Assembly (NCBI RefSeq): GCF_009795805.1
Contig: NZ_WTEY01000003.1
Span: 62,001 to 126,000 of the forward strand
Direction of reading: 5' to 3'
Length of the DNA: 64,000 bases
From: Gilliamella sp. Pra-s52
Lineage (GTDB): Bacteria; Pseudomonadota; Gammaproteobacteria; Enterobacterales; Orbaceae
Shown here in pieces: positions 57,137 through 61,794 of this stretch. The notes below the pieces were generated by a model that was not told the DNA's origin, did no database searches, and was given only the letters and a program-made list of their open reading frames with translations. Made by a program: the position numbers and the translations under genes. How positions within the stretch are numbered: the first letter of the stretch is position 1; each line of letters opens with the position of its first letter.

Positions 57137-59440
57137 ATGCTTAACTTTACTCATTTAAAAAAAACTAGTGCATTAGCTTTTAGTTTATCCTTTGCCATGC
57201 CAACAATTGCAGCAGAAAATAATGACAATGAAAAATACAATGACGTCATGACAGTTACTGCGCACGAAGCAACAAAAAAGCCCGGCAGCAAAACGGAAAT
57301 ATCAGAACAAGATATCAGACGCGATGGTGGCACTAATTTTGGCACACTCATGCGTTATCAACCACTCATTTCGGCACCGGGCAACATTTCTGGCTCAGGC
57401 AGTGGCAAAAGTAGTTGGGATCGTGGAGGGTTTACAGGTTATAACATCCGTGGATTAGACGCCAACCGAGTTTCTATTGACATTGATGGCATGCCTTTAC
57501 CCATCGCACAAGGACGCGTCAACTCAGTGGGTAGAGCTGGTTTTGGGACTTATGGTATTGGTCGCGATTATATAGATACCTACATGTACAACAACGTTGA
57601 TATCCAATCAGGTGCAACATCGGTTAGTAACGCCAATAATGCATTAGGTGGTTCGGTATCATTCCAAACAAAAACTGCTAGCTACTATCTATATCCAGGT
57701 AAAACAAGTTACTTTGGTTACCAAAACAATTATGACAGTACTGATAGAAGTTACCATCAAGGACTAACTATGGCTGGTGGTGATGACGACTTAAATGGTA
57801 TCTTAGTATTAAGCCGACGCGATGGTCAACAAGGCCGTAATCATGGCGACTCAATCAACAACTACCCAGAAAACTGGCACTCAAATTCACTATTAGCGGG
57901 TTTTGGTTGGCAAATAAATAGTGAACACCTTTTCAATACTACTATTGATTACAACACAAAAACAAAAAATGCTCATTACAACACATGGGATAAATACGGC
58001 AAAAAAATTGAATCTCTTGATCACCAAAAAAGCAAAAATAATCGCTTTAATCTAGCCTTCAAAGATCAATGGAAACCAACTAACATTAGCTGGATTGATA
58101 CCCTAACGACTCAAATCAACTACCAACAAACTCACGTTTACGATAACACAGACCTAAAACATATATCTAGAGGCAATTTCAACACACAAACACACTACAA
58201 CACAAAAACCTACAACTTCATCACCACCTTACTAAAAAGCTATGACAACCAAAAAATCAGCGCAGGCTTAAATGCAAAATGGGGCAAAGACGAATCACCA
58301 TTTTATACATCAGCAAAATCACAATATGGAAATTTCTTCCCTGATGGTGATTACACAAAACCACAAGCAGACAGCCGTAGTTATCAACTAGGTGGATTTA
58401 TTGAAGACCGTATTAGTTTTAATATCAACAGCAGCAACAACTTTTATTTAGTTCCGAGTGCAAGAGCAATATACCAAAACACAAAACCTCAACATCTTGA
58501 AAACATGAGCGTAACTAATATCAACGCAAACCAACTTGGCAAACAGTACAGCAGCAACAGTGACTTCAAAATCCTACCATCGCTGTCATTCATGTACGAC
58601 ATTACCCCCAACTTCACCACTTACTTACAATACAAACGTGGTGCACAAATGCCAAATCAAAACCAATTATATGGCTCATATTTAGCACATAGCCAAATGT
58701 ATGTACTTGTGGGGGATTCAAATCTAAAAACTGAAACCAGCGATAACTTTGAACTAGGCCTAAAAGGACAACCGACAGCGGGCATTACATTATCGACAGC
58801 GGCTTTTTATAATAAATACAAAAACTTTATTGCTTATTCTCGTTACAAAAAAAACTTTGTAGGAGTCGGTAACCGAATCGTCTACCAATCTGAAAACCGA
58901 GATAAAGCCTACATTTACGGTGCAGAACTAAGTAGCGAATTTAACATCGGAACGTGGTTTGAATCAGTCAATGGCTTAAGTGCAAGATTTGCCATCGGCT
59001 ACAACCAAGGCAAATCAAAATCAAGTTATTTGGGCGACAAATACATTGAAATGGACACCATAGCGCCATTAAAAAGCACTATTGGACTCGCATGGGATGA
59101 CCCTAACCAATACTACGGTTTTGCATTGACAACAACATTCCAAAAAGGCAAAAAAACTGACGGTACAACTCGTGAAACATATAACAACGATGGTAAACCA
59201 ATTAAAGACTCAACTGATGATTATTTTAGAATTGCAGGCCATGGAATTATTGATTTAACGGGTTATGTTAATATCACTAAAAACGTAAAATTAAGTGGTG
59301 GTATTTATAACCTTACCGATCAAAAATACTGGGATTACCTGAGCAATAATAAATTATACAAAACATCAAATTATAAATACCTAGAAATGTTTACCGCACC
59401 AGGTAGGACATTCCAATTAGGGATGGATATTGATTTTTAA
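57137..59440 (+). CDS. TonB-dependent heme/hemoglobin receptor
   Basis: The 767-residue outer-membrane receptor has a signal peptide, a TonB-box-like segment DVMTVTA and the plug domain (IRRDGGTNFGTLMRYQP, NIRGLDANRVSIDIDGMPLP). The 22-strand barrel ends in a C-terminal Phe (GMDIDF). The plug motif GR..SWDRGGFTGYNIRGLD is typical of heme/hemoglobin receptors. The ATG with GAAAGGAAT upstream was chosen over an in-frame ATG six codons earlier. HmuR, HutA or HasR subtype cannot be fixed here. Confidence 0.88.
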   Translation: MLNFTHLKKTSALAFSLSFAMPTIAAENNDNEKYNDVMTVTAHEATKKPGSKTEISEQDIRRDGGTNFGTLMRYQPLISAPGNISGSGSGKSSWDRGGFTGYNIRGLDANRVSIDIDGMPLPIAQGRVNSVGRAGFGTYGIGRDYIDTYMYNNVDIQSGATSVSNANNALGGSVSFQTKTASYYLYPGKTSYFGYQNNYDSTDRSYHQGLTMAGGDDDLNGILVLSRRDGQQGRNHGDSINNYPENWHSNSLLAGFGWQINSEHLFNTTIDYNTKTKNAHYNTWDKYGKKIESLDHQKSKNNRFNLAFKDQWKPTNISWIDTLTTQINYQQTHVYDNTDLKHISRGNFNTQTHYNTKTYNFITTLLKSYDNQKISAGLNAKWGKDESPFYTSAKSQYGNFFPDGDYTKPQADSRSYQLGGFIEDRISFNINSSNNFYLVPSARAIYQNTKPQHLENMSVTNINANQLGKQYSSNSDFKILPSLSFMYDITPNFTTYLQYKRGAQMPNQNQLYGSYLAHSQMYVLVGDSNLKTETSDNFELGLKGQPTAGITLSTAAFYNKYKNFIAYSRYKKNFVGVGNRIVYQSENRDKAYIYGAELSSEFNIGTWFESVNGLSARFAIGYNQGKSKSSYLGDKYIEMDTIAPLKSTIGLAWDDPNQYYGFALTTTFQKGKKTDGTTRETYNNDGKPIKDSTDDYFRIAGHGIIDLTGYVNITKNVKLSGGIYNLTDQKYWDYLSNNKLYKTSNYKYLEMFTAPGRTFQLGMDIDF

Positions 59441-59470
59441 TCGCAAATTAAAGACACGGTATTTTTTGAG

Positions 59471-59500
59471 ACTAACCCGCTTAAGCGGGTTATTTTTTAT
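59471..59500 (+). terminator. Receptor gene terminator
   Basis: Perfect 20-base palindromic hairpin TAACCCGCTTAAGCGGGTTA followed by a T-rich tract; self-complementary, so it can also act on the opposite strand. Confidence 0.82.
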
Positions 59501-59700
59501 AAAAAGAAGCTAGGGATTAACAGCTATAAAAAACATCAATAAAATCAATCCTCATCCAAAATTTTATCAGAACAATAAATAAGATCGACACTATAATTTC
59601 AGACATTTTAATTTTACCCTAAAAATCAGTCAGGAAAGGCATTGATTTTATTAAAGTTTTTATTTTAATGTTTTTTACAAAAAACTCACTCAAACCAAAT
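59501..59700. other. AT-rich intergenic stretch with repeat copy
   Basis: No gene is seen. It holds a copy of the dispersed repeat (59621-59665) and, about 90 bases before it, a shorter inverted match (CATCAATAAAATCAAT) that could pair with it. Confidence 0.5.
59621..59665 (+). repeat. Dispersed intergenic repeat, copy 3
   Basis: Sequence blocks TCAGGAAAGGC and ATTGATTTTATTAAAGTTTTT match copies near 8.86 and 25.2 kb. It lies next to the 3' end of the group II intron region. Confidence 0.65.
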
Positions 59701-60961
59701 CATTGATGCCATCCTACCCGTTTTGCTTTCCCGACGGTATGAATAACCGCCAACGTAACTACCCACGCTACATGTGGTAGTTATTCAGTAAATCAAATAC
59801 TCTACCACTTTGTAACACGGTTAATGATTGAGTTTTGAGCTTGGCGAATGTTCACAGGTGGACTATTTTTCCCGATAATCCACAACTGCTCAGCATTCGC
59901 TAGCTCATCCCTCGCCTAACATAATTTCATTGGAAATTACCCACCAAAGGATTAGCCTAACATCTTGCGACGAAAGACCAGTTAGAAGTCTGCACCCTTT
60001 CGAGTTAGGTCATGTTTCATACCCTATATTGACCATTACAGCCAATCATTCGCTTTCTCTAACCTCCCTTACCTGCACATTCATCAGCATCACTTACGCT
60101 TTGCCTGCCAACCTCAATCTTTGCACTCTATATATAATATCGATTGCTGAATTGTGGACGGCAAACGTACAGGCTTACCAAGTTCCATTATTATCACACG
60201 AGTAGTTAAGATGTAGACTGTTCGCCGATAGTCTTTTTGATGACGTATTCCCACGATAAACAGGAATATCCGACTATATTACCTTTTGGTCAAAGCCTAT
60301 CAGTAGTTTTGGCTTTTTCAGCATTACGACGTTTATTATCTATTCACTTACGTTCATCTTTCTACTCAGTCTAGCCCCTCATGACATACTACTTGCCATT
60401 ACTTAATGTTACCTCACAGTACGCATTAACCTTGCTATTCCTCAAGGGGGTACATTGTCAGGAAGCTCCGCACCAGACCGTTGCCAGTCTCGCACTATCC
60501 CTAGACTACTGTTAGCCATATAACAGGTTGAACTCTCATTCTTGTATAATGTTGCTACAATCCTGATTCAACAATGATAATAATAGCTTTTGCACTTATC
60601 ACTACACACACTTCATCAATTTCAGCTTAAACTATATGCTGATTGGAATTCTCTCCTCTCCTTCCACGATTACAATAATATCTATTGCATCCTGTTGGAA
60701 AGTACCAGAATTTATCAGATGTGTTTAAATTGAATTGTAAAAAGAGAGTTAGTTCTCTATAATAGTTGAGGTATCTCAACTAGATTATATTACCAACTGT
60801 ACCTTTGGAGGGTTATATACACAGTATCCTTTCGGACACTATATATAATGTCCTACTTAGATACTGTGTAGAGACACTTAGGGCTTTTGACCCTAAGTAT
60901 CCACCTAAAATATTGATAAAAATCAATAAGTTAGGTGTGGTAAGCACGACCCTTGTCGCAC
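59700..60961 (-). mobile_element. Group II intron (no protein gene found) inserted directly after the rpsI stop codon
   Basis: The first intron bases GTGCGAC follow the rpsI TAA without a gap and match the group II 5' consensus GTGYG. The next 350 bases fold into a chain of long perfect stems (for example TAGTTGAG/CTCAACTA, ACACAGTATC/GATACTGTGT), typical of domain I. EBS1 (TTATCGT, 60253-60259) and EBS2 (GCTGAA, 60317-60322) pair with the rpsI end (ACGATAA and TTCAGC). A domain III-like hairpin lies near 59840-59910. I could not find domain V, so the 3' boundary is a guess. No reverse-transcriptase frame is present; it must rely on a protein in trans, or be dead. Confidence 0.78.
60138..60160 (-). 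repeat. Near-copy of the rpsI 3' exon inside the intron
   Basis: On the minus strand CGTCCACAATTCAGCAATCG and the following ATA match the last 23 bases up to the rpsI stop with two mismatches. It includes the EBS2 target TTCAGC and a close version of the EBS1 target. Confidence 0.7.
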
Positions 60962-61357
<396 letters not shown>

Positions 61358-61365
61358 CTATCCCC

Positions 61366-61794
61366 TTAAATATCTAATACTTGCGGTTGTTGTGCCGCAT
61401 GATTGTGCTCATTACCAGCATAAACTTTTAGTTTACGGTACATTGCACGACCAAGAGGACCTTTCGGTAACATGCCTTTTACAGCAATTTCGATGACTTG
61501 TTCAGGATGACGTTCAATCATTTCTTTAAAAGTCGCTTCTTTAAGTCCACCAATGTAACCAGTATGACGATAATAAATTTTATCAGTGCGTTTTTTGCCT
61601 GTTACAGCAACTTTTTCTGCATTGATAACGATAATATAATCACCTGTATCAACATGTGGTGTATATTCTGCTTTGTGTTTACCACGCAAACGGCTTGCGA
61701 TTTCAGTAGCTAAACGACCTAACGTTTTACCTGCTGCATCAACAACATACCAGTCGCGTTTAACTGTTTCTGGTTTAGCTGAAAAAGTACTCAT
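61366..61794 (-). CDS. rplM: 50S ribosomal protein L13
   Basis: L13 is an early assembly protein of the large subunit. The 142-residue protein has the family start [18 protein letters not shown] and [27 protein letters not shown], and ends with [15 protein letters not shown]. First gene of the rplM-rpsI operon. A long structured 5' leader precedes it. Confidence 0.97.

Follow-up and report, generated by a model that had tools for sequence, protein, structure and literature searches.

A probable 5' remnant of a stop-codon-inserted group II intron behind rpsI in Gilliamella, and an exon mimic in its rpsI-specific relatives

A group II intron copy was analyzed directly behind rpsI, the gene for ribosomal protein S9, in a 64,000-nt stretch (the window) of Gilliamella sp. 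Pra-s52, contig NZ_WTEY01000003.1; all coordinates are positions within this window. Most probably the copy is what is left of the 5' part of a retrohoming intron whose lineage inserts at stop codons, its 3' half having been lost in an illegitimate join to the end of a yfiH-like gene, and would now be a dead passenger. The rpsI-specific copies of the lineage hold, in a hairpin, a near copy of the end of rpsI, here called the exon mimic.

The intron remnant behind rpsI

On the minus strand the rpsI TAA ends at 60962 and GTGCGACAAG starts at 60961, the first base past it. An intron-like RNA starting GTGCGAC at this base had been proposed in the initial annotation and was confirmed with the covariance model RF02012, which matched domains I-IV. 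The copy has a 5' GUGYG end, pairing of exon-binding sites (EBS) with intron-binding sites (IBS) of the 5' exon, and exact insertion at the termination codon. The features are listed below.

60962..61354, minus strand: rpsI (ribosomal protein S9), the 5' exon; PF00380, E 1.1e-50; 3' end ...CAGTTCAGCAAACGATAA
59738..60961, minus strand: group II intron 5' part, from GTGCGAC to inside domain IV; assigned from RF02012 and identity with genome G028
60374..60527, minus strand: match to RF02012 (group-II-D1D4-7), 98.7 bits, E 1.9e-19, gathering threshold 34
60317..60322, minus strand: EBS2 GCTGAA, exact complement of TTCAGC in the rpsI end
60253..60259, minus strand: EBS1 TTATCGT, exact complement of ACGATAA at the rpsI end
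60104..60167, minus strand: hairpin after domain I, holding the exon mimic; domain II by position only
60139..60160, minus strand: exon mimic CGTCCACAATTCAGCAATCGAT, 20/22 identical to rpsI -24 to -3; best of 200 shuffles 15

The two exact exon-binding complements, earlier put at about 60 bases apart, are spaced by 57 nt; a second GCTGAA lies at 60626-60621. The span had been annotated as 59700-60961, of which the start holds, while the intron-like sequence stops at about 59738; this inner end was assigned to domain IV by its position before the start of the intron-encoded protein (IEP). No minus-strand open reading frame (ORF) of at least 60 aa was found within the remnant, and the window, as annotated, encodes no reverse transcriptase (RT).

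Domains V and VI were not found in the window at the gathering threshold, nor in 59400-61400 at E ≤ 10, so that the covariance-model check proposed at the outset returned the domain I-IV match and nothing for domain V/VI. The same search does detect domain V in full-length relatives. Because domain V (and VI) is missing, the copy was classed as a remnant rather than an intact intron. Also absent are the IEP, the 3' splice site and the native rpsI terminator; as neither domains V and VI nor a 3' splice site is present, splicing and mobility are not expected.

The join at 59738

The window was compared with genome G028 of a congener (locus L154). Identity was 96% over 61400 to 59738, rpsI included, and stopped at 59738. 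Three features were recorded at and behind this point.

59738..59743, minus strand: TTCATA microhomology (6 nt), common to both sides of the intron/yfiH join
59686..59737, minus strand: yfiH-like gene remnant, 3' end ...YRRESKTGRMASMIWFE*; a longer open copy is at G000:C9 (L004)
59621..59683, minus strand: copy of a dispersed repeat of about 60 bp

The stretch behind the join is presumably the end of a yfiH-like gene, and window positions 59746-59601 are 90% identical to the C9 copy. Among the matches listed, 48 of 51 involve 59683-59621 (40 of 138 candidate places were scored). Some matches of the repeat are inverted pairs a few hundred bases apart, resembling the ends of small mobile elements. 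On the simplest reading an illegitimate join would have removed the 3' half of the intron together with the rpsI terminator.

It counts against this reading that the contig is a draft one, in which a join at 59738 could have been made by the assembly, the strain itself carrying a complete intron behind rpsI. The genome is in 65 contigs and the dispersed repeat adjoins the join. This explanation is improbable, however: neither a second domain V nor a second RT was found in the genome, which is rated 99.97% complete, the sequence past the join matches the C9 copy at 90% and not at 100%, and sspA, the downstream neighbour of the intron in G028, is on a different contig, where the 1500 bases preceding it hold no trace of an intron.

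Genome-wide searches turned up a single domain V and a single RT, both in an intron copy behind pflB.

L021 1138-2865: IEP region of the pflB intron, with the one RT detected genome-wide; its frame is broken by an in-frame stop past the RT domain

The stop falls after 391 codons, homology running on to 573 residues, and the shortened product matches RVT_1 and RVT_N and not the maturase domain. A third copy, behind grcA, is broken off near the start of its contig and adjoins a reading frame that looks like the end of an IS3-type integrase. A location of the missing half elsewhere in the genome was rejected on the single domain V, the single RT and the lack of a relic before sspA.

These results bear on the initial proposal that mobility would need a partner elsewhere. 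A working intron in need of such a partner only is not supported, as the copy has neither domains V and VI nor a 3' splice site and the proposed genome search for an IEP returned the broken pflB copy alone. A functional ORF-less intron, with domain V/VI or maturase supplied in trans, is accordingly very unlikely. Domain I, EBS1 and EBS2 are intact and the pflB copy does bear a domain V, but no domain V/VI was found in cis, the only IEP frame found is interrupted, and the right border of the copy is the end of yfiH. A splicing-competent ORF-less intron was likewise rejected, since no domain V/VI was found. Loss of the 3' half in the yfiH join is thus retained as the preferred reading.

Complete orthologues and empty sites

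G028 holds a complete orthologue at the identical site, comprising rpsI, intron, IEP frame, domain V and downstream frames. Its IEP frame is 600 aa long with RVT_1, RVT_N, GIIM and HNH domains, and the frames after the intron are taken to be sspA and sspB. Full-length introns at the rpsI site of Gilliamella, L154 (G028) and L027 (Gilliamella sp. Choc5-1), share with the window copy the site, the places of EBS1 and EBS2 and the mimic; they differ from it in being complete, with domain V, and L154 has an open IEP frame.

Searches covered one genome per species. Among 30 rpsI loci of the genus, L110 and L116 included, the intron was present in 6 and the site empty in 24; G004 and G011 (rpsI match only) and G025 and G031 (no rpsI match) were dropped from the survey. 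One further genome with an rpsI intron, G019 (L156), lies outside the 30-locus count. In empty sites the TAA is followed directly by the 3' flank and, by eye, a terminator-like hairpin with a T run. The initial annotation would have been overturned by the lack of a domain I/V match combined with the lack of any empty allele. This combination did not occur: domain I matches and empty alleles are common, though domain V is missing. The claim of a site-specific group II intron behind the rpsI stop with matching EBS and IBS is borne out.

A nucleotide search with the intron gave matches of any kind in 12 of 99 genomes, the own genome included, 3 of them marginal. The flanking pattern was positive in 12 of 394 genomes of the order, 7 in the family of the window and 5 in family f9. 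Family f9 was taken to be Pasteurellaceae because named IEP-relative loci share f9 sequences. The pattern was found in 17 of 140 f9 genomes, with copies at rpsI, gapA and tuf, and a second search of 140 f9 genomes gave 3 more rpsI insertions (L213, L216, L228), the hairpin being unreadable in all.

Two arrangements were noted besides. In a Haemophilus genome (L035, G198:C8:408449-415339) three rpsI-type copies are clustered, one beginning at the apparent 3' end of another, as in a tandem array. In G154:C1, of the Pasteurellaceae, two rpsI ends with intron lie at 1246 and 2230306, where an rpsI duplication or a contig overlap is possible.

Stop-codon insertion in the lineage

The intron lineage habitually inserts at stop codons. 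Of 80 IEP-relative loci, 14 are inserted exactly after a stop codon and 7 inside one, where the first G of the intron completes UAG. At least 21 of the 80 are thus stop-codon insertions, L024, behind grcA, having been missed by the pattern. Pfam-checked targets, one representative each, are rpsI, gapA, tuf, groEL, pflB, grcA (glycyl radical domain), etf-QO and a PPIC-type PPIase; groEL-stop copies are L055 and L084, and the Pasteurellaceae copies are likewise inserted at stop codons. At 34 of the 80 loci, mostly in Burkholderiaceae, a TANNAT hexamer ends 10-12 nt before the intron. Five fit neither site type and for 20, L024 among them, no site was found by pattern.

The hexamer-site relatives (L050-L102, mostly Cupriavidus, Ralstonia and Paraburkholderia) have the same kind of IEP in differing surroundings, the TANNAT being -10-like. 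They look as if inserted near transcription starts.

An IEP tree was built from 41 rows out of 62 loci scanned and was midpoint-rooted. In Orbaceae the rpsI group stands beside the pflB/grcA group; in Pasteurellaceae the rpsI group (94/87) stands beside tuf plus gapA. Two groEL-stop Vibrionaceae rows share a branch of their own with two other Vibrionaceae rows, in a tree without the Azotobacter vinelandii IEP. Two labels need correction: L023 was assumed to be grcA and is probably pflB (another contig piece lies behind pflB), the groups being unchanged, and L049 was labelled promoter-type, yet no hexamer was found there.

Match of EBS1 to the target

The EBS1 loop was tested in 28 related copies selected by hand, and was legible in 27; the grcA row, whose loop was missed by the pattern, was dropped. 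The loop changes with the target gene. With G-U pairs allowed, the last 7 exon bases paired with their own loop at 7/7 positions in 19 copies and 6/7 in 8, several of the 27 being near-identical and not independent. With exons swapped between target genes, 7/7 was reached in 0/504 combinations and 6/7 in 113/504. The match of EBS1 to the target exceeds chance, as own exons pair at 6-7 of 7 positions and swapped exons never at all 7.

That EBS1 changes with the target gene shows its role in recognition in the complete relatives. There the intron RNA would read the last 15 or so bases of a housekeeping gene through EBS1 and EBS2, and a protein with RT, maturase and HNH domains would, judging from those domains, insert the intron at the stop codon. 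The host protein would thereby be terminated before the intron, spliced or not. The housekeeping genes targeted are highly expressed, and a benefit from riding such mRNA, as the initial annotation had it, may be supposed. Joining to the yfiH end would have cost the window copy its IEP, domains V and VI, 3' splice site and native rpsI terminator, and the remnant would be a dead passenger in the 3' untranslated region, neither splicing nor moving by known chemistry.

An exon mimic in the rpsI copies

In rpsI copies the hairpin after the EBS1 part of domain I contains a sequence closely resembling the final 16-20 nt of rpsI; at other target genes the corresponding position is taken by a short loop. 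To score the mimic, exon bases -24 to -3 were slid along the intron, with 200 shuffles per exon. Scores out of 22 in Orbaceae were 20 for the window, 18 for G028, 19 for G020, 17 for G010 and 20 for G019, and in Pasteurellaceae rpsI copies 17-20; shuffled exons reached at best 15-17 in the mimic rows. Copies at non-rpsI genes scored 12-14, L046 excepted. No mimic was found in them over the stretches searched (up to the first 1700 bases of each copy), again except for L046, judged to be chance.

Counted by genomes with a readable hairpin, the mimic is present in 6/6 Orbaceae (window, G028, G020, G010, G017, G019) and 6/7 Pasteurellaceae, 12/13 in total. G017 was counted though its rpsI end and intron lie on contigs C39 and C69, which meet at the junction; L158 (contig ends before the hairpin) was excluded. 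At other genes the mimic was found in 0/20 copies: gapA 9, tuf 6 (L177 with a broken hairpin) and pflB/grcA 5, a count that excludes L163 (exon off the contig) and L164 (hairpin off the contig). The strength of the evidence lies in the fixed place of the mimic and its repetition across genomes.

The mimic follows the rpsI of its host, with CAATTCAGC in Orbaceae (G010 excepted) and CAATACTC in Pasteurellaceae. Over 17 positions in 12 copies, the mean match was 16.2 and 15.3 to rpsI of the own family and 12.7 and 12.0 to that of the other; L184, an rpsI copy in G110 with no mimic, was left out of these comparisons. The first nine bases (GTCCACAAT) are identical in 36/36 Orbaceae-Pasteurellaceae pairs of the 12 copies. 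From base 15 on, the loop is 0.54 alike between families vs 0.52 when shuffled, with 0.81 within Orbaceae and 0.61 within Pasteurellaceae. Resemblance to the exon weakens over the presumptive IBS1. Hairpin and mimic together were searched for in 369 genomes of the class, which returned the window copy and one match each in four other genomes, these four being taken for chance from their letters alone.

Origin and possible role of the mimic

In the window copy the mimic cannot matter for mobility. In complete copies it may take part in target recognition, which we rate at somewhat under an even chance. Being top-strand in sense, the mimic could anneal to the bottom strand of the target within the distal 5' exon, a region that the IEP recognises in studied introns; otherwise it might occupy EBS2 or the IEP in the free ribonucleoprotein (RNP). 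Put at its most specific, and tentatively, the mimic (about -24 to -9) would be a second recognition element of rpsI introns. It would either take the bottom strand while EBS1 and EBS2 take the top strand, the RNP opening the site from both strands, or occupy EBS2 or the IEP until the RNP reaches its proper site.

Several observations weigh against a specific role. G010, with 17, scores no higher than the best shuffle of its exon, and in the gapA row L036 a shuffle reached 19. An 18/22 match also arises in L046, an etf-QO stop-codon intron, 592 nt from the intron start and within an ordinary domain I hairpin; this match is probably chance. L184 scores 14, and the mimic is therefore not needed for the rpsI target. 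The IEP tree allows both one gain plus losses (two, and that of L184) and two gains plus the L184 loss. On either history the mimic goes with the rpsI target. Lastly, the G010 mimic pairs at 5/6 positions with EBS2 and the target at 6/6, and in 4/6 Pasteurellaceae copies target and mimic both pair at ≤4/6 with the presumed EBS2. Together with the position of the most conserved mimic bases upstream of IBS2, these pairings disfavour simple EBS2 pairing of the mimic; EBS2 pairing accounts for only part of it.

The mimic could instead be a relic of a past template switch or rpsI capture, conserved by recent ancestry or repeated capture only, a reading with a prospect of about one in three. The tree permits two separate gains, one rpsI copy has no mimic, and the rpsI end is well conserved between both families, so that separate captures would look alike. 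Against a relic, the six Pasteurellaceae copies compared agree in all of the first 13 mimic bases and are 0.61 alike from base 15 onward, this later part of the loop is at the shuffled level between families, and relatives at other target genes do without the mimic in both families. A chance resemblance made by the hairpin pairing, of which L046 is the one example, is scarcely credible, given that the mimic stands at one place in 12 of 13 rpsI genomes, follows the family-specific rpsI sequence and differs by family in its predicted pairing (mean unpaired 0.12-0.26 vs 0.55-0.73).

Elsewhere in the window, a PreQ1 riboswitch (RF00522, 53.9 bits) was noted at 10908-10864 on the minus strand.

Relation to known systems

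PMC4465626, citing Michel et al. 2007, places the groEL intron of A. vinelandii in a monophyletic subset whose members share a large insertion at the 5' end. Like the window lineage this intron is of the stop-codon type, and groEL-stop copies are found among the relatives; it differs in its target gene and in that no mimic is mentioned in the part of the source seen, while the window copy is 3'-truncated. Class C introns are likewise bacterial group II introns that spare coding sequence; they sit after the terminator hairpin, whereas the insertion of the window type is between stop codon and terminator. Assignment to class C behind a terminator was rejected by site, the terminator-like hairpin and T run of empty alleles lying downstream of the insertion.

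The accessible part of PMC4424553 gives homing sites, positions after terminators and attC as target specificities of bacterial group II introns, and calls ORF-less ones rare. Bacterial ORF-less introns have no RT, like the window copy, and are taken to splice, whereas the window copy is without domain V/VI. The parts seen of PMC8919778, PMC3073962, PMC4028801 and PMC13372188 hold nothing on stop-codon insertion or mimics, and among stop-codon-inserted bacterial group II introns the accessible literature yielded the groEL case only. No exon mimic in a group II intron was recognised in the literature search, which is weak evidence of absence as most subscription journals lay outside it.

By itself the window copy is ordinary and belongs, as a remnant, to a known kind; its family is less ordinary, and the mimic-bearing rpsI introns are a new variant within it. 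The stop-codon lineage represents a clear way to live in many housekeeping genes without depending on splicing. A part of the mimic in recognition would, if true, be an unknown part of how such retroelements find their targets.
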